From: Flavobacterium oncorhynchi | GTDB taxonomy: Bacteria > Bacteroidota > Bacteroidia > Flavobacteriales > Flavobacteriaceae | Assembly (NCBI RefSeq): GCF_002217355.1 | Contig: NZ_MUHA01000010.1 | Coordinates: 96,423-160,422, forward strand | Direction: 5' to 3' | DNA length: 64,000 nt | In this document: positions 2,958 to 13,791 of the stretch, piece after piece | How positions within the stretch are numbered: the first letter of the stretch is position 1 | How the letters are laid out: every line of letters starts with the position of its first letter | Program-made: the position numbers and the translations under genes | Notes under the pieces: model-generated | Told to the model about the DNA's origin: nothing | Seen by the model: only the letters and a program-made list of their open reading frames with translations | The model's database searches: none

Positions 2958-4265
2958 TTACTTTTCTCTAATATAAATATCAATCGGAACTCCTGCAAAG
3001 TCCCAATTATCTCGAATTTTATTCTCTAAATATCTTTTGTACGGCTCTTTTACATATTGCGGCATGTTTGCAAAAAACACAAACTGAGGTGTTTGCGTTG
3101 GCAATTGCATACAATATTTAATTTTTACATATTTACCTTTTGTAGCCGGCGGCGGGTATGCTTCAATTACTTTCAACATGTATTCGTTGAATTTTGAAGT
3201 CGAAATTCTTTGTTTTCTATTTTCAAAAACTTGAACTGTAGCTTCTAATGCTTTTAGTAAACGTTGTTTTGTTAATGCCGAAACAAACAAAATTGGCACA
3301 TCTGTAAATGGCATTAATTCTTTTTTGATTCTTTCTTCGTAATCACGGCTTGACATGGTGTCTTTTTCGACCAAATCCCATTTGTTTACTAAGATTACAA
3401 CACCCTTACGGTTTTTCTCGGCAAGCCAAAAAATACTTTGATCCTGACCTTCAAAACCACGAGTTGCATCAATTACTAAGATACAAACATCGGCATGTTC
3501 AATAGCTCTTACAGAACGCATTACAGAGTAAAACTCTAAATCTTCTTTAACTTTTGCTTTACGACGGATTCCTGCAGTATCAACTAAATTAAATTCAAAA
3601 CCAAAACGGTCAAATTTTGTATCAATCGCATCACGAGTTGTACCAGCAATATCTGTTACAATATAACGATCCTGACCAATTAAGGCATTGATAAAACTTG
3701 ATTTTCCTGCATTTGGACGTCCTACAACTGCAAAACGAGGTAATTCTTCAGTAACTTCAACTGGTTCTTTTTCTGGAAATGCGTCAATTAAAGCATCTAA
3801 TAAATCTCCAGTTCCGCTTCCTGAGATACTTGCAAACGTAAAATAATCTCCTAAACCAAGATTATAAAACTCAATTGCATCTTTCTCACGCATTGCGTTA
3901 TCAACTTTATTTACAGCCAACAAAACTGGTTTTGTTACTTTGCGCAACAATTTAGCAACCGTTTCATCCATTGGTGTAATTCCTTCTTCAACATCTACAA
4001 CAAAAATAATAACATCGGCTTCGTCGATAGCAAGCTCAACTTGTTTACGGATTTCACCTTCAAATACGTCATCAGATCCGCGAACGTATCCACCCGTATC
4101 AATTACAGAAAACTCTTTTCCGTTCCACTCGCTTTTACCATAGTTTCTATCACGGGTAACCCCAGATACTGAATCTACAATAGCTTCTCTTCTTTGTATC
4201 AGCCTATTAAAAAGGGTCGATTTCCCTACATTAGGTCTTCCTACTATCGCAACAATGTTATTCAT
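2958..4265 (-). CDS. der: Ribosome biogenesis GTPase Der (EngA)
   Basis: A 435-residue double GTPase acting in 50S ribosome assembly. Two tandem G domains are visible: [12 protein letters not shown] near residue 9 with DTGG and NKVD motifs, and [12 protein letters not shown] near residue 182 with [11 protein letters not shown] and NKWD. A KH-like C-terminal domain (about 350-435) completes the usual Der architecture, and the length matches the family. Start: ATG directly before [16 protein letters not shown]. The era gene lies upstream in the same orientation, a common arrangement in Flavobacterium; 234 bases holding an inverted repeat separate the two. Confidence 0.97.
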
Positions 4266-4363
4266 TTTTTTGAATTTTAGATTCCTGATTTACAATTTTA
4301 GATTTGTTTTTTGACTAAATCACAATAAATTATAAATCTCAAATGCTTTATTTAAATTTTTTG

Positions 4364-4371
4364 CAAAGGTA
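4364..4371 (-). promoter_or_regulatory. Candidate -7 box for der
   Basis: The minus strand reads TACCTTTG, matching the Bacteroidota -7 consensus TAnnTTTG, about 100 bases before the der ATG. No clear TTG was seen 19 bases upstream, so the call rests on the -7 box only. Confidence 0.45.
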
Positions 4372-4429
4372 GTTAAAAAAAGTTGCTGAGATGCTACGTT
4401 TCTAAGTACCTAAGATTTTATATTTTTTG

Positions 4430-4488
4430 TTTCTAGTTCAGGTTTCAGGTTGAACGCTAGAACCGAACTTGAAACCTGAAACTTGAAA
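4430..4488. repeat. Imperfect inverted repeat between era and der
   Basis: Arms of about 22 bases (4430-4451 and 4466-4488) built around CAGGTTTCAGGTT and AACTTGAAACCTG, 12 bases after the era stop. No T-run follows on the minus strand, so it is not a classical intrinsic terminator; it may be a small repeat element or a processing/3'-end hairpin. Confidence 0.6.
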
Positions 4489-4499
4489 TAGTTTAAACT

Positions 4500-5381
4500 C
4501 TATTGATTATAACCAAATCGTTTCAACATATTAGCGTTGCTTCTCCAGTTTTTATTCACCTTTACATAAAGCTCAATGTGAATTTGCTTTCCGAAGAATT
4601 TCTCTAAATCAACACGAGCATCCATTCCTACTTTCTTTAGAGCGGCACCTTTATGGCCAATGATAATTCCTTTTTGAGTATCACGTTCTACCATAATTAC
4701 TGAACGGATTCTGATAATATTAGCATCTTCATGAAATTCCTCTGTCACGATTTCAACCGCGTATGGAATTTCTTTAGCGTAATTCAATAAGATTTTTTCA
4801 CGAATAGTTTCATTTACAAAAAAGCGTTCCGGTTTATCCGTTAACTGATCTTTAGGATAATAAGCTGGCGATTCTGGCAATAATTCGATAATTCTGCCAA
4901 AAACTTCCGGTACATTAAAGTTCTGTAAAGCTGAGATTGGAAAGATTTCTGCATTTGGCACTTTTTCTTTCCAAAAAGCAACCTGCTCTTCTAATTGTTC
5001 CTGATTTGAATTGTCGATTTTATTCAACAATAACAAAACTGGGATTTTAGCATAAATAATTTTATTGAAAAAAGCTTCATCTTTTAAGTCTTGCTCTCCT
5101 ATTTCGACCATATAGATTAAAATATCAGCATCTTCAAAAGCCGATTTTACGAAGTTCATCATCGACTCTTGCATTTCATACGCCGGTTTTATAATTCCGG
5201 GAGTATCAGAAAGTACCAATTGAAAATCTTCGCCATTTACAATTCCTAGAATTCTATGACGTGTTGTTTGTGCTTTTGATGTAATGATAGATAGTCTTTC
5301 ACCAACAAAGGCATTCATTAGTGTTGATTTTCCAACGTTTGGATTCCCGATGATGTTTACAAAACCTGCTTTATGTGACAT
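4500..5381 (-). CDS. era: GTPase Era
   Basis: A 293-residue GTPase that binds 16S rRNA in 30S maturation. It shows the P-loop GNPNVGKST, the switch-I region around TTRHRILG, DTPGI, NKID, and a C-terminal KH domain with IIIGHKGAALKKVG. The length is normal. I chose the ATG at 5381 (MSHKAGFVNIIG) over the in-frame ATG two codons upstream because the family usually begins with a short Ser/His/Lys stretch before the G1 strand; the longer start (5387) is also possible. A candidate -7 box lies just upstream at 5402-5409. The gene is divergent from tRNA-fMet. Confidence 0.96.
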   Translation of the reverse strand: MSHKAGFVNIIGNPNVGKSTLMNAFVGERLSIITSKAQTTRHRILGIVNGEDFQLVLSDTPGIIKPAYEMQESMMNFVKSAFEDADILIYMVEIGEQDLKDEAFFNKIIYAKIPVLLLLNKIDNSNQEQLEEQVAFWKEKVPNAEIFPISALQNFNVPEVFGRIIELLPESPAYYPKDQLTDKPERFFVNETIREKILLNYAKEIPYAVEIVTEEFHEDANIIRIRSVIMVERDTQKGIIIGHKGAALKKVGMDARVDLEKFFGKQIHIELYVKVNKNWRSNANMLKRFGYNQ

Positions 5382-5401
5382 TTGCATAATATTTTAAGGT
5401 G

Positions 5402-5409
5402 CAAAGGTA
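5402..5409 (-). promoter_or_regulatory. Candidate -7 box for era
   Basis: The minus strand reads TACCTTTG (TAnnTTTG) about 20 bases upstream of the era start. This gives a very short leader; no well-spaced TTG box was found. Confidence 0.5.
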
Positions 5410-5456
5410 GTCATATCAACTCAATACAGAAAATAAAACATTTTTTTAAGTTTTCG

Positions 5457-5486
5457 TTGGATTTCTAAAAAATCGGCGTATCTTTG
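5457..5486 (+). promoter_or_regulatory. Promoter of tRNA-fMet copy 1
   Basis: TTG at 5457-5459, 19 bases, then TATCTTTG at 5479-5486. This is an exact match to the Bacteroidota -33/-7 pattern, 13 bases before the tRNA. The sequence following the -7 box is GCACCCG, shared with the other tRNA promoters here. Confidence 0.8.
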
Positions 5487-5498
5487 CACCCGAAACAT

Positions 5499-5571
5499 CG
5501 CGGGATAGAGCAGTAGGCAGCTCGTCGGGCTCATAACCCGAAGGTCACAGGTTCGAGTCCTGTTCCCGCTA
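5499..5571 (+). tRNA. Initiator tRNA-fMet (CAT), copy 1
   Basis: A 73-base cloverleaf without encoded CCA. The anticodon CAT is at 5532-5534. The anticodon stem has GGG/CCC, the hallmark of bacterial initiator tRNA, and the first acceptor pair is mismatched (C1/T72), also an initiator trait. The D-arm (GAGC/GCTC) and T-arm (ACAGG/CCTGT with TTCGAGT loop) are intact. An identical copy lies at 50169-50241. A degraded 3' part recurs 311 bases downstream at 5882-5940. Confidence 0.97.
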
Positions 5572-5579
5572 CTAAGAAA

Positions 5580-5610
5580 AACACCACTTGAAAAAGTTGG
5601 TGTTTTTTTC
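5580..5610 (+). terminator. Terminator of tRNA-fMet copy 1
   Basis: The stem ACACCACTT / AAGTTGGTGT is followed by seven T residues, nine bases after the tRNA. A near-identical terminator sits at 26308-26341, about 20.7 kb downstream. Confidence 0.85.
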
Positions 5611-5629
5611 GTTTATAGCATTTTGTATT

Positions 5630-5884
5630 ATGGAAGAATTTGTAGTTTACATTCTTTACTCAGAAAAATTTAATAAAAATTATACTGGCTTTACTTCTAA
5701 TCTAATTGAAAGATTCAAATCTCACAATCATCTTGAAACAAAAGGTTACACACTAAAATTCAGACCTTGGACAGTTATTCATATTGAATTTTTCAGTTCT
5801 AAATCTGAAGCAATGAAAAGAGAAAAATACTTAAAAACAGGAATAGGAAGAGAATTTATTAAAAATATCATTTTAAACTTATAG
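5630..5884 (+). CDS. Small GIY-YIG nuclease family protein
   Basis: An 84-residue single-domain protein. 'VVYILYSEKFNKNYTGFT' is the GIY-YIG core with the second motif altered to YTG, followed by the conserved Arg in LIERFKSH and by E/K residues (SEAMKREKYLKTGIGREF) typical of the short UvrC-like, UPF0213-type group. A TTG start at 5588 would lie inside the tRNA terminator, so I chose the ATG at 5630. The stop codon TAG overlaps the first bases of a degraded tRNA-fMet 3' copy, so the gene sits between the intact tRNA and a partial duplicate of its 3' end. The family cuts DNA; the target and role here are unknown, and mobility of the gene is inference. Confidence 0.85.
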   Translation: MEEFVVYILYSEKFNKNYTGFTSNLIERFKSHNHLETKGYTLKFRPWTVIHIEFFSSKSEAMKREKYLKTGIGREFIKNIILNL

Positions 5885-5940
5885 CTCGCCGGACTCATAT
5901 CCGCCGCGGCGGACACAGGTTCAAGTCCTGATCCCGCTAC
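5882..5940 (+). pseudogene. Degraded 3' fragment of tRNA-fMet
   Basis: The fragment runs from the end of the D-arm through the anticodon (CAT kept) and T-arm to the acceptor 3' strand, aligning to the intact tRNA with scattered substitutions and a small change in the variable region. The T-arm ACAGG/CCTGA and the end ATCCCGCTAC are readable. There is no 5' acceptor strand: upstream is the GIY-YIG coding sequence. It therefore cannot be a working tRNA and looks like the att-type duplicate left by insertion at the tRNA 3' end. Confidence 0.85.
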
Positions 5941-5946
5941 TAAGTA

Positions 5947-5977
5947 AAGCTTCAGAGAAATCTGGAGCTTTTTTTGT
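5947..5977 (+). terminator. Terminator behind the tRNA fragment
   Basis: The stem AGCTTCAGA / TCTGGAGCT is followed by a T-run. It belongs to the terminator family found many times in this window, including behind tRNA-fMet copy 2. Confidence 0.8.
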
Positions 5978-6048
5978 TTTCTACCTTTCTGATTCTCTTT
6001 GTGGGCACAGATTGCAAATCTGCGCTATCGCTATCTACATATCGGAGC

Positions 6049-6144
6049 GATCAGGGTTTCAGTCCAAAATTCTCCTTCTTTACTACATTTAAAAAAACTA
6101 CAGGACTAACTCCTGCAGAATATCAAAAATCCCTTCTAAAATGA
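6049..6144 (+). pseudogene. 3' remnant of an AraC-type regulator gene
   Basis: In frame 6049-6144 the translation reads DQGFSPKFSFFTTFKK followed by TTGLTPAEYQKSLLK and a stop. This is the second helix-turn-helix and tail of an AraC C-terminal domain (compare GFTSKTTFYKAFKKVTG in the intact gene at 24409-25563). Nothing upstream continues the domain. Of the rest of the gap before the next gene, 6145-6343 holds only a very short ORF at 6242 beginning like a signal peptide (MIKASKVIIQ) that stops after 21 codons; it cannot be supported as a gene. Confidence 0.7.
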
Positions 6145-6343
6145 GTTCAATATTATAGAATTGAACTCCTATTTTATAAATTAAAACCTCGAAACAATCT
6201 GCATTCGGGATATTTGCGCTTATTATTAATAATCTTAAAAAATGATAAAAGCATCGAAAGTTATAATACAAAGTATTTTCATCTTCCTTCTTCTCTCAGC
6301 TATTTAACCCTTTAATCAGGGAATTAAACTATAAATTACGACA

Positions 6344-7390
6344 ATGAAATATTTAATCACTATTTTATTTTTCACATTACTTGCCTGTAAAAGTGTTCAT
6401 CAAACCAATATTCAAAGTGTTGAAAATGCGATTACAAATAATGCTGTTCAGTTATTAGAAGACAAACGATTTCATTCTGTTTCCGTTGCAGTGCTTAAAG
6501 ATGGAAAAAGCACAATAAAACATTTTGGTGAACTAACTATCGGAAAAGGAAACAAGCCAAACGATTCTACACTATATGAACTAGCTTCTGTAACTAAAAC
6601 TTTTACAGGATATATAGCAGCGAAAGCTGTGCTTGACAAAAAAATAAATTTAGATGATGATATTAGAGTTTATCTTGATGAACCTTATCCTAATCTTGAA
6701 TTTAAAGGTGAACCTATAAAAATCAGACACCTCATCACCCATACAAGTGGATTTCCTAATTTCCCTATAAAAAGCGAAAATAAAAAAGCTTTTTTTGAAG
6801 GATTAAAACTAATCAAAATTGAAACAAAACCTGGAGAAGTATATTACTATTCAAACACGGCTCCAGAGTTGACAGCATATATACTTGAAAAAGTATATCA
6901 AAAGCCTTTTGAGGAATTGGTAATGGATTTTGTTTTGAAGCCAAATAAAATGAACGAAACCAAGTTTGCACTAAATGAAAATGATAGAACAAAATTAGTA
7001 AAAGGTTATAACGATAAAAACGAGTTAATGCCTAACTTCACTAGGACTTTATGGGGTGGAATTTCGGGATTGCATTCTACGACTACGGATTTAGTGAAAT
7101 ATATGAAATTGCAACTAGACAAGTCAAATCCTATTGTAAACGAATCTCATAAAAAATTATACAAAGAAGGTACTGATTTTTGGGAAGGTTATCATTGGTA
7201 CATCATAAAAAATGATGACGAATTAATTTATAGACATCACGGAGGTATATACGGAATGCAGAATTGGTTTGTGATTTATCCAAAACAAAATATAGGAATA
7301 TCCATATTGACAAACACCAGCTTTAATGAAACAGGCGAAATTTTAGAAAAAGTAGTTGATAAATTGTATGCTGATATAAATAAAAAATAA
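6344..7390 (+). CDS. Beta-lactamase-family serine hydrolase, lipoprotein
   Basis: A 348-residue protein of the class C / penicillin-binding fold (Pfam Beta-lactamase type). Catalytic motifs: S82-V-T-K85 (SxxK), Y169-S-N171 (YxN) and the HxG-type motif at 298-301 (HHGG). The N-terminus MKYLITILFFTLLAC is a lipoprotein signal with Cys15, so the protein is anchored to a membrane. The substrate is unknown: families with this pattern include esterases, D-aminopeptidases and carboxypeptidases, and resistance should not be assumed. It sits between two tRNA-tail repeats in the accessory region and follows an AraC gene remnant that may once have regulated it. Confidence 0.85.
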   Translation: MKYLITILFFTLLACKSVHQTNIQSVENAITNNAVQLLEDKRFHSVSVAVLKDGKSTIKHFGELTIGKGNKPNDSTLYELASVTKTFTGYIAAKAVLDKKINLDDDIRVYLDEPYPNLEFKGEPIKIRHLITHTSGFPNFPIKSENKKAFFEGLKLIKIETKPGEVYYYSNTAPELTAYILEKVYQKPFEELVMDFVLKPNKMNETKFALNENDRTKLVKGYNDKNELMPNFTRTLWGGISGLHSTTTDLVKYMKLQLDKSNPIVNESHKKLYKEGTDFWEGYHWYIIKNDDELIYRHHGGIYGMQNWFVIYPKQNIGISILTNTSFNETGEILEKVVDKLYADINKK

Positions 7391-7658
7391 ATAGCGCATA
7401 ACAACTAAGTGCTAAATTCTAATTTAGTTTCTGGATTGAACTTTAATGCAAAACTGAATATTTCCGCTTCAATTTCCACCAGTTAGCCAAGCTGCAACCG
7501 CTTGGATTTAAATCAAGTCAATTTATATTATTTTTTTTAATTATTAATTTTAAGATGTTAATGCAAAAATCGCATAATAACCTCAATAAACTAGTGAGAT
7601 AATTGACAGCTCCTGTTACTAAGACAAAGCTTCAGAGAAATCTGGAGCCTTTTTTTTG
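7391..7658 (+). repeat. tRNA-tail repeat T2 with terminator
   Basis: A gene-free stretch. From about 7545 it matches the stretch ending at 22692 (AATTTTAAGATG, then ACCTCAATAA, then a T/CTACTAA end). It closes with GCTCCTGTTACTAAG, a decayed tRNA-fMet end, and the terminator stem AAAGCTTCAGAGAAATCTGG with a T-run at 7626-7656. The following bases, GATTCTCTTTGCGGGC, also recur after tail T1 (near 5990). The long reading frame across it (7603-7797) is not a real gene. Confidence 0.65.
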
Positions 7659-7743
7659 TTTATACCTTGATTCTCTTTGCGGGCGCGAAATCACGAGACA
7701 TTCAGACAGCTTTCCCCAAGAAATCTTCGAAGAGCGGGGTTAC

Positions 7744-7797
7744 AAGCCAGTCGCTACAAGCCAGTCGCCAAATGAATATAAAACCACAAGCAAATAG
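7744..7797 (+). pseudogene. 3' end of an AraC-type regulator gene
   Basis: The last codons read SPNEYKTTSK-stop, matching TPNEYKNTIK-stop at the end of the intact regulator at 24409-25563. The DNA after the stop also aligns with the spacer behind that gene (GTACC, then TTTATACAG, GCTTTTGA). The rest of the regulator is missing. This marks a truncated copy of the AraC/porin pair. Confidence 0.65.
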
Positions 7798-7885
7798 GTA
7801 CCAATTTATACAGTTTTGAGCTTTTGAGACCTTTTCTAATTTTTCTTATATGAATTTTGGATTTAAATAATTCAAAGCACTTTTT

Positions 7886-8425
7886 ATGAAAAAAAACTTT
7901 TTACTACTGATCATTTTATTTGTCTTTTATTCTGCCAATGCTCAAAATGGAACTGATCTTTATCAGAAAAATAATGAAATTAAATTAAACGCTCTTGCTC
8001 CTTTATGGCAATCTTTTCAGGTTGGTTATGAAAGACATTTAAATCATAATTCGTCATTAGGAATTTCTTTTTATTATGTGTTTGACAATAAAAAGAATGA
8101 AAAGGATTTAAATTATTCAATATCTCCGTATTACAGAAGATATTTTGGTAAAAAATACGCATCAGGCTGGTTTGTTGAAGGATTTGGAATGCTGGCTTCA
8201 ACAGATGGCAAAAAAATATACGCTTCAGAAGATCATTCTATATATACTGAAAATCCCGACGTTATTAATTTTGCTCTCGGTGCCGGCGGAGGCTGGAAGT
8301 GGGTCAGTAAAAGCGGATTTCTTTTTGAAGCAAATATTGGTTATGGTGGTATATTAATCAATGCAGATAAAACAGATCATACTATTGTTGCAAAATTTGG
8401 GCTTAGTGCTGGATATAGATTTTAA
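7886..8425 (+). CDS. Small outer-membrane beta-barrel protein
   Basis: A 179-residue protein with signal peptide MKKNFLLLIILFVFYSANA-Q, then alternating amphipathic strands ending in the typical C-terminal aromatic (AGYRF). The size fits an eight-stranded barrel of the porin/DUF3575-like type. The 5' and 3' non-coding flanks align with those of the barrel gene at 25652-26206, although the proteins themselves differ, so the locus is a rearranged copy of that one. Only the last codons of an AraC regulator remain upstream, so any former local control is lost. Function unknown. Confidence 0.75.
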   Translation: MKKNFLLLIILFVFYSANAQNGTDLYQKNNEIKLNALAPLWQSFQVGYERHLNHNSSLGISFYYVFDNKKNEKDLNYSISPYYRRYFGKKYASGWFVEGFGMLASTDGKKIYASEDHSIYTENPDVINFALGAGGGWKWVSKSGFLFEANIGYGGILINADKTDHTIVAKFGLSAGYRF

Positions 8426-8430
8426 TAAAA

Positions 8431-8566
8431 CTTATGATTCAATCTAAAAAAAACGTCAAATTCTTACGACAACTTTATTAAAATCATCCATAAACTGGTT
8501 AGATATTTGAATGCTTCCCACTACTAAGACAAAGCTTCAGAGAAATTCTGAGGCTTTTTTTATATC
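8431..8566 (+). repeat. tRNA-tail repeat T3 with terminator
   Basis: Aligns with 26213-26341: CTTATGATT, then TCTAAAAA, AAATTCTTA/G, AAAATC, AAACTGGT. It ends with TTCCCACTACTAAGACAAAG, nearly identical to the end of tRNA-fMet copy 2 plus its downstream bases, followed by the terminator (stem around 8531-8562). Confidence 0.75.
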
Positions 8567-8575
8567 TGATGTTTT

Positions 8576-9109
8576 TTATTGCGGACCAATAGTAAATACA
8601 ATACGAGCAGTGTAGTTATCAACCGGAGTTGTAACAGACACTCCTCGTACTCGAAGGTTTAAACCAATATTAGTTACTTCTGCTAATGATAAAACAGCAA
8701 CTACTCTAAATAACTCTGTATCATTTGTAAGAACCTCCTGATAGGGCGCCGCTTGATTTGGAGTCATACTACAAAGCACACATAATCCTGATCCGTTATT
8801 TAGTTTTCTTACATCGATTTTTAGCGCATTATTCCAGGTAGGATTGGGTTCATATCGTACCGAAATCTTACCAGTACCTAAAAGAGCCGGCACTGTCAAA
8901 TTTAAACTCATTTGAGTAGAGGTACTTTCATAGGTTCCTGCATAATCAGATCCTGCTTCTGTAATGGTTGGAACAACAGGACTCCAATCTGTACCTACTA
9001 CTGTAATCGTTTGAGATTTAGCAGCTATACATACCAATAAAGCGCCCGCTAAAAGCAATAACCTTATAGATGCATTTATTCGATTTTTCATACTGGAATG
9101 TTTCACCAT
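8576..9109 (-). CDS. Putative secreted fibre subunit, minor or tip type
   Basis: A 177-residue protein with a signal peptide (ending near AAKSQ) and an all-beta body. The end 'VDNYTARIVFTIGPQ' resembles the last strand of spore-coat-U/Csu-type pilins (Y-T-x-x-I/V-x-F/V-T-I). It contains a CVLC pair that could form a disulfide. It is the last gene of a five-gene minus-strand operon, four bases after the previous gene. A second ATG (MKNRIN) six codons in may be the true start. I recognise no exact family; the subunit role is inferred from the fold-like pattern and from gene order. Confidence 0.6.
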   Translation of the reverse strand: MVKHSSMKNRINASIRLLLLAGALLVCIAAKSQTITVVGTDWSPVVPTITEAGSDYAGTYESTSTQMSLNLTVPALLGTGKISVRYEPNPTWNNALKIDVRKLNNGSGLCVLCSMTPNQAAPYQEVLTNDTELFRVVAVLSLAEVTNIGLNLRVRGVSVTTPVDNYTARIVFTIGPQ

Positions 9110-9113
9110 CTTT

Positions 9114-9662
9114 TTAGTTACTAATAGTATAGGTTATCGTAATTATTTTACTAGTTGTTTGTACCAATTTCTTATAATCATCAACTTCTAAAGAAATATT
9201 CAGCAAGTGTCCGTTATTAATACCATTTCCTGTATAAGCACCGCCAATACCCGTTATAATTGTAGTAGGCGAAGTGGTTAGTGTAACTTTACCGGCTGAA
9301 GTTCCAAGAGTACCTCCGCCGCTACCAGTAGCAGCTGCAGCTTGAAGTTTTACAAATAGTCCCGCAAAGGACTGATCAATTTGGGCACTAATAAATCTTG
9401 AAGGCGTTGTTGTTTTTTTAGCAGAGGTATAGTTCAACCATTTTGTGGTATTAACAGCAGGAATCGTCAGCGGACGACCCGCTTCTGTTGGAGCCAAAAA
9501 GTTAAAAGAAATAGCAGTCATACTCGGTTCAACATCAAGTAATGCAACTTCTGAAAGATTTATATTAATATTACGGTTTCCAGACGTTTGCGCTGAAAGA
9601 AAAAAAGTACCACAAAAAAACAGCAATACCCCAAAAACAAATTGAATTGAATTAAAAATCAT
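9114..9662 (-). CDS. Putative secreted fibre subunit, paralogue of the 13237-13791 product
   Basis: A 182-residue secreted protein with a signal peptide ending near LSAQ. It shares a clear pattern with the first gene of the operon: V-A-L/I-x-D-x-E-P, E-A-G-x-P, W-L-N-Y, the block TGSGGGTLGT, YTGxGxxNGHxL, and a final strand ITYTISN. The two are therefore paralogues at moderate identity. The start overlaps the usher-like gene stop by four bases (ATGA), which implies translational coupling. Likely a structural or adaptor subunit exported by the neighbouring usher-like barrel; this is inference. Confidence 0.65.
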   Translation of the reverse strand: MIFNSIQFVFGVLLFFCGTFFLSAQTSGNRNININLSEVALLDVEPSMTAISFNFLAPTEAGRPLTIPAVNTTKWLNYTSAKKTTTPSRFISAQIDQSFAGLFVKLQAAAATGSGGGTLGTSAGKVTLTTSPTTIITGIGGAYTGNGINNGHLLNISLEVDDYKKLVQTTSKIITITYTISN

Positions 9663-12334
9663 TTTTTATCTTTTGAAGTGTTAAAACCTACTTTCATTGG
9701 TTTTTGCAAATATTTTATTTCTTTCTCTGTTTTACTTATCTTAATCTGAACTTGTTTTTCTTCATTAGGGTTAAGTGTTAAATTTATTTCATTAGTAAGA
9801 ATTTTATATTTGCTGTCTAATGCGCTGCGATATACCTTTAACTTCCAATCTCCTGGTCTTAGGTATGTAAAATCAAAAGGCTTGGTTATTTTACATATTT
9901 TTCTAAAAACCTGATTATCTGATATTATTTCGACAATTACACTTTGTTCTTTGTTGGCAATATCTTTGTCATCGAGTATTATAATTCCTTTAATATTTGA
10001 GGCTTTTGTAATACCAAAATCGAGATAATTTCCTCCTTCTACTATCGTGACTTTAGCAGGAATATCAATATCTGTAATATCTTTTACCCCCAGTGTTCCT
10101 TGTTCTATCTCAAGAAAATAAGTATCGGGTTTTACATTTTTAAACAAAAAATGACCCCGTTCATCAGTAATAGCTGAGTAAGGCCCCAAATGAAGTTTTA
10201 CACCTTGTATTTGTGCACTCTCTAAAGTAGTGATATTTCCTTCAAAAAAACCATACTCTTTGACTTTTTTAATAGGCGCATGAATATCCAGCGCATACCG
10301 TACAGAAAATGAAAAATCTTTATTCTCTAGTTGCTTTTGTGCTAAAGCATATCGAGAAAGCATGTTTATTTGCTGTCTTGGTGATATTCTGTAATTTAAT
10401 GCCAGTTCCAGAAGATTTCTATCTCTATAGTATTCCTCAAGATAGTATGTATTTTGATAGAATAAACTCAGATACCATCGATCATCAATAGTCGCATTTA
10501 TACGTCCTCCATATAAAAACAGTTTCTCATCCTTTGCTGCATATCGACTCACAGTGGAATAACTGCCATAAAGGCTTATAGAATTTCGCTTGTAATTATA
10601 GCTTACGTTTGCAGTTTGTATTGATGTTTTACCCGTTGAATTAATCAAAAAATTAGTTGTTTCTGCGAAAAACATTTGAAAATTGACCGAAAACTTATAA
10701 ATATCCTGAGTTAATTCGATACGATTAAATCTTTCTTTATAAAAAAACTGTTTATGCTCCATTCTGTCTTCATATTCCTGAGTTCCGCTAAACAAAGAAA
10801 CCGCTCCACTTTTTAAATAGTTATAACGTATTCCTATTTGAAAAGCTTCTCTAAATGGAGCCGCACCATAGAGCGTATCTCTTTCAAAATTTCTCGCATC
10901 CTTTTGATAATTAGCAGAAAGGTTCAGTTTGGGTAAAACCCGGTAATTAACGTTGGAAGTAAAAAATTGCGTATCTGTATAATAACCTGAAAAATGAGGA
11001 GATGCATATATATAACTTGCACTAACATTTAGATCATTAAAATAAGTTTGGGCTTGCAGCTGCCATGCAGTTCCTTGTGTTTTTTCATTATTACTTACAG
11101 CATATTCTCCTTGTATACCAATTTTATCAAAAACATTTGTCTCACCAGAAACATAATGCAAATGATCCTCCTGATCAATATCTTTTCGTTTCAGTAAATA
11201 TCCGTAGCGTATATTATTTTTGGCATTAAAGTTCACTTTAGCATAAACATTAATCTCCTCTTTAATATCTTTAAAAAAACGCGGTTTATTGTAAAACCCA
11301 CCTACCTCTAATTTCTTGTATTTTTGTCTTAGTTCTATACCTCTTCCATATCTTGAAAACTCGGTCAAAAATGATGAGTAAAAGATCTTATCTCCTAAAT
11401 GAACATAAAAATTATTGGATTTATAATTAATAAAATATTCTTCATACTGAGAAAAGACAGTTAATCCGAAACGATCCGGACCGATTGCCCTAAATTCAAG
11501 AAATTTTGTATTCTCTTCATTTAAAGCTCCTCTTCCATAAATTTCTCCCTGAAAACCAGAGTCATAGTCATTTCGCTGCTGCGTCCCAATATACGTTGCA
11601 GCTACTCTAATAGGAAAACGAAGCCAGACATCTTCATTTACCGGAAAAGCGGGAATAACATTTGTAATCTGCGAGGCAAAAACAGATTGCGTAGTGTCGC
11701 TTTTTATAGAAGCCGTAAGTTTAATTAAGTTTTGTGACGGCTTGGGTTGTTTAAGATCAGTAGATTGATATGCGTTTATTGTTGCCGCCATCCCAGGTAA
11801 TAACAAAATAGGATTATCTCCTTTTACAAAAGTTGCTGCAGAAGTCTCGATAAAGATATTTTCTTCAACGTTTCCCTCATTTTTTAGAATAAAAAAGCTA
11901 TGAATAGTATCTCCAGCTTTTACATAGCTTGGCGTAGAAATAACATCTAATGTTATCCGCTGTACCTGACTTACCATTAACGCAAAATCTTGAGAATACA
12001 AAATAGCATTTGTTTTATCATTAATAATTAAATGCATGCTGTCTTTACCTTTTGATGCATTAATTGGTACTTGAATAGCTGCTAAATATATTTTAGTTTC
12101 ATTTGCAGCTAAATCAAGTTCATAAGGAGCTGCGGCTAAAATCCAGCCTTTTGGAAGTGTGACTTTTGGAGTAACCAAAATATCTTTTGAAAATGGATTA
12201 GTAATCTTAAAAACCAATGTCTGTACTTTTCCCGGAGTAAGAAACTCATTCTGGTTTACTAAATTAACCGCAAGGTTTTGCGCCTGAAAAAAATAAGGAA
12301 TAATGAATAATAATATAATTATTATTTTATTCAT
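9659..12334 (-). CDS. Usher-like outer-membrane barrel with Ig-like and transthyretin-like domains
   Basis: An 891-residue protein. Order: signal peptide (1-19), one or two N-terminal Ig/NEW3-like beta-sandwiches (about 20-215: 'FKITNPFSKDILVTPKV', 'FILKNEGNVEENIFIET'), a long Tyr/Asn/Arg-rich region of alternating strands (about 225-700) that reads as a large beta-barrel, and two C-terminal sandwich domains (about 705-880). The first of these has the CarboxypepD_reg signature DERGHFLFKNVKPDTYFLEI. No TonB box or plug like a TonB receptor was seen. A barrel with periplasmic Ig-like and C-terminal sandwich domains, lying between a chaperone-like gene and subunit-like genes, is what an usher should look like, but there is no sequence resemblance to FimD that I can claim. 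It overlaps both neighbours. Confidence 0.65.
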   Translation of the reverse strand: MNKIIIILLFIIPYFFQAQNLAVNLVNQNEFLTPGKVQTLVFKITNPFSKDILVTPKVTLPKGWILAAAPYELDLAANETKIYLAAIQVPINASKGKDSMHLIINDKTNAILYSQDFALMVSQVQRITLDVISTPSYVKAGDTIHSFFILKNEGNVEENIFIETSAATFVKGDNPILLLPGMAATINAYQSTDLKQPKPSQNLIKLTASIKSDTTQSVFASQITNVIPAFPVNEDVWLRFPIRVAATYIGTQQRNDYDSGFQGEIYGRGALNEENTKFLEFRAIGPDRFGLTVFSQYEEYFINYKSNNFYVHLGDKIFYSSFLTEFSRYGRGIELRQKYKKLEVGGFYNKPRFFKDIKEEINVYAKVNFNAKNNIRYGYLLKRKDIDQEDHLHYVSGETNVFDKIGIQGEYAVSNNEKTQGTAWQLQAQTYFNDLNVSASYIYASPHFSGYYTDTQFFTSNVNYRVLPKLNLSANYQKDARNFERDTLYGAAPFREAFQIGIRYNYLKSGAVSLFSGTQEYEDRMEHKQFFYKERFNRIELTQDIYKFSVNFQMFFAETTNFLINSTGKTSIQTANVSYNYKRNSISLYGSYSTVSRYAAKDEKLFLYGGRINATIDDRWYLSLFYQNTYYLEEYYRDRNLLELALNYRISPRQQINMLSRYALAQKQLENKDFSFSVRYALDIHAPIKKVKEYGFFEGNITTLESAQIQGVKLHLGPYSAITDERGHFLFKNVKPDTYFLEIEQGTLGVKDITDIDIPAKVTIVEGGNYLDFGITKASNIKGIIILDDKDIANKEQSVIVEIISDNQVFRKICKITKPFDFTYLRPGDWKLKVYRSALDSKYKILTNEINLTLNPNEEKQVQIKISKTEKEIKYLQKPMKVGFNTSKDKK

Positions 12335-13124
12335 TTGGTATATTTAGTTCAACATTTATTCCAAAAACATGATCATCACTACTACTCGCAAGTATCGAAG
12401 CATTATATTTTCCAGAAGGAACTGAACTTAAATCTATAGTAAACAGCTTGGAATTGTTAGGCAGCAAACTCATTATATCGCTCTTGAATTTTCCTTTATT
12501 ACTACCGTCTTTACTGTCAAATATCTCGATGGAAGCTTCAACAAGATGAAATACTTCTCCATTATTTGAAATTGAAAGTTCTAAAATATTCTTTCCGGTA
12601 ATTTTCTTTAAATCAATAGCATCAAAAGTCATTAAAGCACTTGCTGGTTTTTCATTTGTGGTAATGATCTGAATGCTATAACGAATGAGTGTTCGCAGCT
12701 GAATACCATTTTTGACATTATTGGGTACAATATCATCAACAGGTTCGACCATTACAACGCTCCAAAAACTGCCGCCGGGAGTGTTTTCTGGAATAATGAT
12801 TTCATAAGATACACTTGCCTTACCTTTACCTTCTATTTTTAATAAATCAGTATTTAATTTAATCCATTTTAAATTGCTCCTCTTATTTTTTCCATAATCT
12901 TCATAAAATGAAGTACCTGTCGCATTATAGCTGTAGTCTTGCTGATAAAGCCTTACATTTTGAGGAGCATCGGAAGTGTTTTCAATTGTGATAATTCCTT
13001 TTTGCAGTGTTCCTTCTTTTAGTCTGTAATTATGCGTCAAACCATTGGTAATAACAATACTTGCGAATAAATTAGTGTACGCAAAGAAAACTGCAATAAA
13101 AAAGAGTGCTTTTTTTAAAGTCAT
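12327..13124 (-). CDS. Chaperone-like periplasmic protein with two Ig-like domains
   Basis: A 265-residue protein with signal peptide (1-21). Residues about 22-150 form an Ig-like sandwich: 'TIENTSDAPQNVRLYQQDY', SVSYEIIIPENTPGG, 'WSVVMVEPV' and LRTLIRYSIQIITT. The second domain (about 160-265) also reads as beta-sandwich and ends in VFGINVEL. Two-domain size and the N-terminal pattern (structured-tail proteins, I-x-P, V-x-x-R-Y) resemble fimbrial PapD-type and Csu-type chaperones and DUF916-like proteins. It overlaps the usher-like gene by eight bases. Chaperone function is inferred from fold pattern and position. Confidence 0.6.
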   Translation of the reverse strand: MTLKKALFFIAVFFAYTNLFASIVITNGLTHNYRLKEGTLQKGIITIENTSDAPQNVRLYQQDYSYNATGTSFYEDYGKNKRSNLKWIKLNTDLLKIEGKGKASVSYEIIIPENTPGGSFWSVVMVEPVDDIVPNNVKNGIQLRTLIRYSIQIITTNEKPASALMTFDAIDLKKITGKNILELSISNNGEVFHLVEASIEIFDSKDGSNKGKFKSDIMSLLPNNSKLFTIDLSSVPSGKYNASILASSSDDHVFGINVELNIPNE

Positions 13125-13164
13125 TATAGTAGGTATTTAAGATATTCAGGTAGTTTTGGGGAAA

Positions 13165-13202
13165 CAAAAAAAGTGCCTCCTGATTTTACGTAAGCGACAC
13201 TA
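13165..13202 (-). terminator. Possible leaky terminator inside the fibre operon
   Basis: On the minus strand AGTGTCGCTT pairs with AGGAGGCACT (one mismatch, two wobble pairs), followed by seven T residues. It lies between the first subunit gene and the chaperone-like gene. In known pilus operons such partial terminators keep the major subunit in excess. Confidence 0.6.
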
Positions 13203-13236
13203 TTTTTGTTCAAAGATCTTGTAAAAAATACTGCTT

Positions 13237-13791
13237 TTAGTTTTCAGCAATAGTATAAGTAACTGTTACAGATGGCGTAGAGGCAAATAAACCTGTGTAA
13301 TTATTAGCATGTAATGAATAAGTCAAATTGTGTCCGTTTGAAGCACCATCTCCAGTATATGAAGCTCCAATTGCTGATACAATTTGCTGGTCAGCAGCAG
13401 TAAGAGTAATTGCACTGCCGGCAATAGTCCCCAGTGTTCCTCCTCCATTTGATCCAGTAGCTGTAGCTGCCTGAACTCTTACATCTAATCCAGGTACAAC
13501 TGCATCCATTTTGACAGATACTTTAGCCGTTTTTGCACTTGCTGTTGGAATGTAAGAATAATTGAGCCACAAACTAGCATTGTTAGCAGGAGCTACAATA
13601 GGCAGACCTGCCTCTACAGGAGCAGTAAAAGCCATAGTAATATTTTTTGACAACGCTGGTTCAATATCCACAATAGCGACTGTGGGAATTGTAATTCCTA
13701 CTGTGTGAAAATCTGTTCTAGTGTCTTGAGCATGGGCTTTGCCAAAAACAACCATAAAAAATACAACCGATAAAATGTTAAATTTTTTCAT
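13237..13791 (-). CDS. Putative major secreted fibre subunit
   Basis: A 184-residue protein with a clear signal peptide (MKKFNILSVVFFMVVFGKAHA-Q). The mature part is Ala/Thr/Gly-rich and beta-like, with 'VAIVDIEP', EAGLP, WLNYSY, TGSNGGGTLGT, ASYTGDGASNGHNL and a last strand VTVTYTIAEN. The paralogue at 9114-9662 has the same blocks. It is the first gene of the operon and is cut off from the rest by a weak terminator, the position of a major pilin in chaperone-usher operons. No cysteine pair is visible. The subunit role is inference. Confidence 0.65.
   Translation of the reverse strand: MKKFNILSVVFFMVVFGKAHAQDTRTDFHTVGITIPTVAIVDIEPALSKNITMAFTAPVEAGLPIVAPANNASLWLNYSYIPTASAKTAKVSVKMDAVVPGLDVRVQAATATGSNGGGTLGTIAGSAITLTAADQQIVSAIGASYTGDGASNGHNLTYSLHANNYTGLFASTPSVTVTYTIAEN

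Follow-up and report, generated by a model that had tools for sequence, protein, structure and literature searches.

The window analysed here, a 64,000-nucleotide stretch of Flavobacterium oncorhynchi (contig NZ_MUHA01000010.1, positions 96,423 to 160,422), carries between positions 8576 and 13791 five minus-strand genes whose organization recalls that of a chaperone-usher pilus operon. From A1 to B, they are:

13237..13791, minus strand: subunit A1, a candidate major pilin-like subunit of 184 residues (AlphaFold2 model, pilin rows in Foldseek and VIA, 91-sequence alignment).
12327..13124, minus strand: a periplasmic chaperone-like protein of 265 residues with two immunoglobulin (Ig)-like domains, homologous to WxLIP (match to EfmWxLIP1, remote link to PapD).
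9659..12334, minus strand: a usher-like outer-membrane barrel protein of 891 residues (AlphaFold2 model, Foldseek, VIA).
9114..9662, minus strand: subunit A2, an A1 paralogue and candidate adaptor of 182 residues (39% identity to A1; included in the alignment that displays the extension pattern).
8576..9109, minus strand: subunit B, a candidate tip subunit of 177 residues with no N-terminal extension or a shorter one (Q-to-EAG distance, profile link to A).

All five genes were found where an earlier reading of the DNA, made without database searches (the sequence-only reading), had placed them, with the same junctions: from A1 to B, a 112-base gap, an 8-base overlap, a 4-base overlap and a 4-base gap. 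The genes are probably co-transcribed. Judged by eye, every one of the five proteins begins with a signal-peptide-like stretch, which in the small subunits is followed by a conserved glutamine (Q), and the identity between A1 and A2 bears out their proposed paralogy. The order subunit, chaperone, barrel, subunit, tip-like subunit is that of the fim pili. A scan of the five proteins against Pfam and NCBIfam returned no pilin, PapD or Usher match; the subunits reached no Pfam cut-off, and the barrel protein matched Porin_4 above the cut-off and CarboxypepD_reg below it.

Within the same family (Flavobacteriaceae), the barrel was found in 10 of 299 genomes, the source genome included. In the nine others a chaperone homologue invariably lies beside it (9/9), with small subunit-like genes nearby; at one locus (L020) an extra open reading frame separates barrel and chaperone, at two (L014, L015) the block is followed by the A1-like gene, and at another (L018) no open reading frame is listed in the place of A2. 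Scanning genome contigs with the chaperone alignment led to 51 loci, some in genomes shared with the previous search, from Flavobacterium, Chryseobacterium, Elizabethkingia, Sphingobacterium, Draconibacterium, Mariniphaga, Dyadobacter, Lutibacter and others. The conservation of gene order across Bacteroidota, by which the sequence-only reading proposed to be judged, is evident from these loci: the order chaperone, barrel, subunit A, subunit B is kept in 48 of the 51 and the complete five-gene order in 41, while the three that depart from it lie at contig ends (L052, L069) or on a 4.1-kb contig (L044). The grouping is not a product of chance, as the genes stay in this order where barrel identity drops to 21%. 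The conserved block comprises the chaperone, the barrel and the small subunits only, the flanking genes varying, by eye, from locus to locus. The alignments used below, window included, hold 40 of the 41 barrels kept from 50 after removal of near-copies and short ones (L063 omitted), 40 of 51 chaperones, 91 of 109 A subunits and 37 of the 42 B subunits kept from 49 (five long ones omitted).

Across 395 genomes of the phylum, in searches that scored few candidates per genome and whose counts may consequently be low, a chaperone match (E <= 1e-5) was detected in 44. The barrel profile matched 93 genomes, most rows corresponding to the common C-terminal sandwich domain alone; 22 genomes had rows covering 150 profile columns or more, the limit having been chosen after the list was inspected, and the chaperone is present in 20 of them, against 2.5 expected (P 1.7e-19, kinship ignored). 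No relative was found in the viral contigs searched and no barrel relative in plasmid records, and a 542-base piece gave no match to E. coli genomes. A second group of chaperones, more distant, also exists in the phylum; one member is encoded in the source genome itself (G000:C16:81489-82127). A second, distant operon of that genome (L094, G000:C16:74000-90000; 3657-9634) contains two small subunits, a WxLIP-like chaperone of 276 residues, a possible tip protein of 339 residues and a 924-residue barrel.

Structures were predicted with AlphaFold2 for A1 and the barrel protein. The A1 model, built from 91 sequences, has a predicted local distance difference test (pLDDT) score of 91.6. Chaperone-usher pilins or adhesins fill its first 23 Foldseek rows (best CfaB, E 8e-3) and 48 of its 50 listed VIA rows, the remaining two being cannula and tube proteins; the best VIA row is again CfaB (Z 7.6, root-mean-square deviation 2.9 over 104 residues). 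Considering both classical (FimCD/PapDC) and non-classical (Csu, ECP/CFA) chaperone-usher pili, the model lies closest to the pilins CfaB, CS17 and CooA. Other sandwich families were judged within the 50 listed VIA rows, and absence from these is no exclusion. The sequence-only reading had named an unrelated fold of the small proteins as what would overturn it; A1 models instead with what appears to be the Ig-like fold of chaperone-usher pilins.

Searches of subunits A and B against solved structures by sequence gave no convincing relative, and a search of the source genome at E <= 0.01 added no subunit of either type. B is more remotely related to A1 and A2 than these are to each other, its profile-profile comparison with A giving P 1.5e-7, or 2.3e-4 when signal peptides are removed, and the A subunits are related to the subunit set of the distant sister loci (P 3.5e-8), several of which have subunits belonging to DUF4402 (PF14352), a family the window subunits do not reach at any Pfam cut-off. 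Most sequences of both types (A, 85 of 91; B, 36 of 37) end alike, with a [YFL][TS][hydrophobic] motif and at most six residues after it. The two types differ at the N-terminus, where the A subunits carry a candidate donor strand:

13681..13728, minus strand: residues 22-37 of A1, a candidate donor strand extending its N-terminus (hydrophobic alternation in the 91-sequence alignment).

Positions 31, 33 and 35 are hydrophobic in 99-100% of the 91 sequences, with mostly polar or small residues between them, and 32 of the 50 listed VIA alignments of A1 begin at residue 36-40. An alternating hydrophobic pattern of this kind is reported for the donor strands of CsuA/B (PMC4654587). Measured from the mature start to a shared EAG motif, the Q-to-EAG distance has a median of 39 residues in A (89 of 91 counted) and 21 in B (37 of 37 aligned); B is thus shorter by about the length of the extension, as would suit a tip subunit. 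Among seven candidate tip proteins of the distant sister loci, five, of 339-478 residues, match the subunit profile, best at their C-terminal end, and may therefore resemble two-domain adhesins.

The barrel protein was modelled with a pLDDT of 85.2 and a predicted template modelling score of 0.60. The model displays the N-terminal Ig-like and C-terminal sandwich domains that the sequence-only reading had proposed, with a 26-strand barrel between them:

11645..12271, minus strand: two N-terminal Ig-like domains, residues 22-230, a candidate docking site for chaperone-subunit complexes (AlphaFold2 strands; weak NPCBM_assoc match).
10265..11626, minus strand: 26-strand transmembrane barrel, residues 237-690 (AlphaFold2 model).
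9731..10252, minus strand: two C-terminal beta-sandwich domains resembling CarboxypepD_reg, residues 695-868, positioned like CTD1 and CTD2 of ushers.
11339..11398, minus strand: an LGD-x14-GRG motif at residues 313-332, similar to the LGD...FRG motif found in classical ushers.

The succession of an N-terminal domain, a barrel and two C-terminal domains in the model is shared with the ushers of chaperone-usher pili, and as the number of strands is even, both terminal regions would face the periplasm. Foldseek ranks 1-10 are all FimD or PapC (E 1.6e-16 to 5.2e-12), with about 800 columns aligned to FimD; ciliary proteins, more PapC and then LptD (7e-8) and TonB receptors follow. That the barrel might turn out to be a TonB- or LptD-type receptor, the other outcome that was to count against the sequence-only reading, is not borne out: ushers occupy the top ten rows, FimD at 1.6e-16 against 7e-8 for LptD, and the model has no plug, an Ig-like N-terminus and a C-terminus made of sandwiches.

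The distant barrels are related to the window barrel alignment (A5; P 1.3e-33). By a loose pattern, the LGD...GRG motif is present in 33 of 40 members, and xGD...RG in three of seven E. coli ushers; in classical ushers LGD...FRG sits just before the plug. This motif and the match of the distant barrels to ushers described below provide a hint, on which we claim no homology with ushers. Long barrel proteins of 1150-1453 residues occur at L073:9822-13733, L063 and L070; by eye, such long members of the barrel alignment begin like lipoproteins and are considerably extended at the N-terminus. Two distant barrels match the peptidoglycan-binding SPOR domain, L105:7972-11370 well above the cut-off (41.4 bits) and L098:7898-11446 just below it.

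The chaperone-like protein matches EfmWxLIP1 with E 5e-4 as a single sequence; profiles built from 10 and 40 sequences give 4.2e-8 and 2.7e-12, the last match spanning both domains (PGBD and HBD) that define WxLIP; in single-sequence Pfam searches it stayed below the cut-off (WxLIP_HBD, 6.1e-5). Its family also matches ten WxLIPs of Gram-positive plasmids (pairwise profile P 1.3e-14), and no PapD chain appears among the matches listed at E <= 1 for the 40-sequence profile against solved structures. As described in the WxLIP paper (PMC10599100), WxLIP consists of two perpendicular Ig-like domains, has a hairpin strand predicted to complete the sandwich of WxL, and has been proposed so far as a binder of peptidoglycan and host; the terms "chaperone", "donor" and "Bacteroid" are absent from its text. 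A protein 72% identical to EfmWxLIP1 is encoded by a record labelled as a Klebsiella pneumoniae plasmid (CP069367.1:101791-102444), perhaps Enterococcus DNA in the assembly.

The connection with PapD passes through intermediates. Eleven of the distant chaperones match the window family (P 8e-37), and they match ten PapD-type chaperones of E. coli K-12 (P 5e-8 over 205 columns); the best of 100 column shuffles gave 0.065, the reversed comparison 0.16, and the jackknife values range from 2e-9 to 5.3e-7. Caution is nevertheless required, as the tandem Ig domains of the barrel protein reach 1.1e-4 against the same E. coli chaperones, and when these are reduced to the EcpB/EcpE pair the value is only 2.2e-3. 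Gram-positive WxLIPs compared directly with the E. coli chaperones gave P 0.15. One distant chaperone passes the Pfam cut-off for WxLIP_PGBD (27.8 against 27.3 bits). In one family of the phylum, PapD_N matches (E <= 0.001) occur in 24 of the 395 genomes, 23 over the cut-off, and all four chaperones tested from this bridging family passed it (27.7 to 32.7 bits). Such PapD_N-passing chaperones adjoin a barrel matching the distant-barrel profile at about 1e-13 in L126 and L129, where the three subunits tested are all DUF4402, and a barrel matching the window-type profile weakly in L125 and L128 (2.4e-5, 0.003). WxLIP-like and PapD-like chaperones therefore meet within one kind of operon. From its sequence, the chaperone-like protein belongs to the WxLIP family and, through these intermediates, appears to be remotely related to PapD. 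At L107:7777-8637 and L127:7085-7966, both in one family, WxLIP-like chaperones were seen with no recognised barrel or subunit gene alongside.

At the position where the window protein has N-G-L-T-H, the consensus of E. coli chaperones has T-R, known as a carboxylate anchor, and the distant chaperones have an S-P-T-R-like stretch (proline in 10 of 11, arginine in 6 of 11). The invariance of NGLTH in the 40-sequence alignment is in part a product of the search, whose scan pattern contained it; nine relatives found without this pattern do not keep the motif. Conserved in all nine are N49, W87, G118, W121, R148, N187, P222 and Y240. R148, present in 38 of 40 aligned sequences, nine of nine pattern-free relatives and six of eleven distant ones, is a candidate second anchor.

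Taken as a whole, the operon is best read as encoding a chaperone-usher-type surface fibre, of a branch found in Bacteroidota, to which we assign a probability of roughly 0.77. The sequence-only reading had proposed an export system of chaperone-usher type whose components are unrelated or very distant. The usher rows in Foldseek and the pilin fold of A1 support the type; for the chaperone, "unrelated" has to give way to "remotely related". Unlike chaperone-usher pili, however, the window system has a WxLIP-like chaperone, a 26-strand barrel devoid of plug and of a PF00577 match, and subunits that match no Pfam pilin. Ushers have 24 strands and an inserted plug; with neither a plug nor an Usher family match here, we do not place the system in the known chaperone-usher family.

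Several results weigh against this interpretation. The longest inter-strand loop of the barrel model is 13 residues, which leaves no room for an inserted plug, and PF00577 gave no match on the window barrel protein, nor was it among the 25 families listed, of 31, for a ten-member barrel alignment. In VIA, MtrB ranks first for the barrel (Z 20.2, 413 residues, root-mean-square deviation 5.5), and AlgE is level with PapC and FimD at 16-17 (best PapC/FimD rows 16-16.6). The best Z of A1, 7.6, is below 8, the level under which the tool warns of common arrangements, so that the case for a pilin rests on the purity of the row list and not on single scores. Direct profile comparisons of the window families with their E. 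coli counterparts failed throughout: chaperones with PapD-type chaperones of K-12 (no match, P 0.13), subunits with pilins (no match) and barrels with seven ushers (nothing). Homology with ushers was also sought through the distant barrels and set aside, their match (P 8.3e-9) being unstable on leave-one-out (1.1e-7 to 2.4e-4); the controls of this comparison gave 0.23 for the best of 60 shuffles, 0.025 for LptD and 0.16-0.47 for FhuA, FepA and FadL. A merged profile matched ushers (2.6e-4) no better than LptD (4e-4), and single ushers scored between 1.3e-4 and 0.6 against the distant-barrel profile. Finally, in the five dereplicated B subunits that the alignment omits, the start measures 24-30 residues, a length intermediate between those of B and A.

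We infer that the system works like a chaperone-usher pathway, the chaperone being a remote relative. All five proteins would enter the periplasm by Sec, the signal peptides seen at their N-termini presumably being cleaved. The WxLIP-like protein would keep hold of each subunit by supplying the strand that the subunit's Ig-like sandwich lacks, as the pilin fold and the predicted WxLIP-WxL complex suggest, and the N-terminal Ig domains of the barrel protein would then receive the loaded chaperone. Subunit B would be exported first, as the tip, followed by A2 as adaptor and by A1 as shaft, the alternating N-terminal strand of each A subunit displacing the chaperone from the preceding subunit. 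Because the barrel model has no inserted plug, gating would depend on the terminal domains or on the loaded subunit. Donor-strand exchange, export and a surface fibre are thereby proposed for the five-gene system.

The kinship with WxLIP also allows for a diderm WxL system, in which the WxLIP-like protein would be a lasting partner holding sandwich proteins on peptidoglycan or the outer membrane, with the barrel as anchor or porin and no fibre. EfmWxLIP1 is the closest solved relative of the chaperone-like protein, and Gram-positive WxL/WxLIP clusters, which share this homologous two-domain protein, in part display the same gene order without the barrel: among 11 records picked from 84, an annotated WxL gene lies directly upstream of WxLIP in eight, and a large protein directly follows in six. 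The SPOR matches of two distant barrels, one above the cut-off, would also fit such an anchor. We nevertheless consider this explanation unlikely. The window system adds an outer-membrane barrel; no WxL domain is detectable in its subunits; its WxLIP homologue ends, by eye, directly after domain 2, with no C-terminal transmembrane helix; and the N-terminal difference between A and B suits a polymer with a tip. A WxL origin of the subunits was tried and rejected, the A profile reaching P 0.02 against WxL (one of 12 proteins, not a WxL protein, having been removed from the comparison set) with no Pfam WxL match, whereas A1 has the pilin-like fold; one WxL protein tried by sequence had no solved relative at E <= 1.

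Two further explanations were considered. The barrel could export or anchor something else, such as a polysaccharide or an electron-transfer or nutrient complex, with the small proteins as accessory partners. The lead of MtrB in VIA and the tie of AlgE with ushers speak for this; the MtrB barrel also has 26 strands, and small beta-sandwich proteins are common in loci of these types. Yet the conserved block holds only the chaperone, the barrel and the small subunits, with no conserved cytochrome partner and with flanks that differ by eye, A1 is pilin-like, and the window barrel bears extra Ig and sandwich domains at its two ends, which MtrB and AlgE are not known to have. This makes such a cargo improbable. 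Even less credible is that the small proteins are cargo of the type IX secretion system (T9SS) or gliding-motility adhesins, the barrel being an unrelated porin. One survey (PMC4793230) reports T9SS in 60 of 97 genomes of Bacteroidetes, and weak Por_Secre_tail matches occur in five of ten chaperone homologues (best E 1.1e-3). No sorting domain is listed, however, for the window subunits or for two subunit alignments, and the weak match falls within the second Ig domain of two distant chaperones.

Outside the five genes, one further element borders the operon:

8531..8557, plus strand: a palindrome of 12 pairs that separates the operon from the convergent gene 7886-8425, terminator-like on the plus strand.

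By eye, it has no strong T tail on the minus strand, that of the operon; the region holds seven terminator-like sites against 2.7 expected. An attenuating terminator in the gap between A1 and the chaperone gene, which could explain a higher output of the major subunit, was considered and discarded, the hairpin being no better than shuffles (z -0.27) and a terminator being found in 12 of 43 loci by a crude test. A Bacteroidota-type promoter (TTG, TAnnTTTG) 39 bases before A1 was given no weight, as it also arises in 308 of 2000 shuffles, and a scan for sigma-70-type promoters gave 23 sites against 27.5 expected. By eye, histidine kinase-like and response regulator-like genes lie beside the operon in L018-L021, L014 and L015, which suggests that it has its own sensory control in several Flavobacteriaceae. 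Elsewhere in the window, positions 5588-5884 hold a 98-residue open reading frame that by eye resembles a GIY-YIG nuclease.

Chaperone-usher fibres are not usually attributed to Bacteroidota, as the sequence-only reading had remarked. A search of the 395 phylum genomes with PF00577 matched none (0/395, the E. coli control being positive in the same search). Fibre-forming proteins known from the same phylum include the type V pili (FimA, Mfa) of Bacteroidales (PMC5789003); a single Mfa2 match (E 0.0072) fell in a chaperone homologue and none is listed for the subunits. In the open-licence literature searched, preprints excluded, we found no paper naming DUF4402, none on such chaperone-usher systems in Bacteroidota and none treating WxLIP as a chaperone.

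A broader proposition, on which the evidence leaves us evenly divided, is that Bacteroidota own a large chaperone-usher branch whose ushers have 26 strands and no plug, whose pilins are related to DUF4402 and whose chaperones are of the WxLIP type, that WxLIP and PapD form one superfamily, and that donor-strand assembly spans monoderms and diderms, WxL clusters being such systems without outer membrane and usher. The usual usher models miss the system altogether, yet a WxLIP-like chaperone is present in 44 of the same 395 genomes. If the fibre reading is right, assembly chaperones would count WxLIP among their relatives, the parts of ushers required for export would become apparent from one that has no plug, and many unnamed surface proteins of Bacteroidota would gain a function together with a testable route of assembly.

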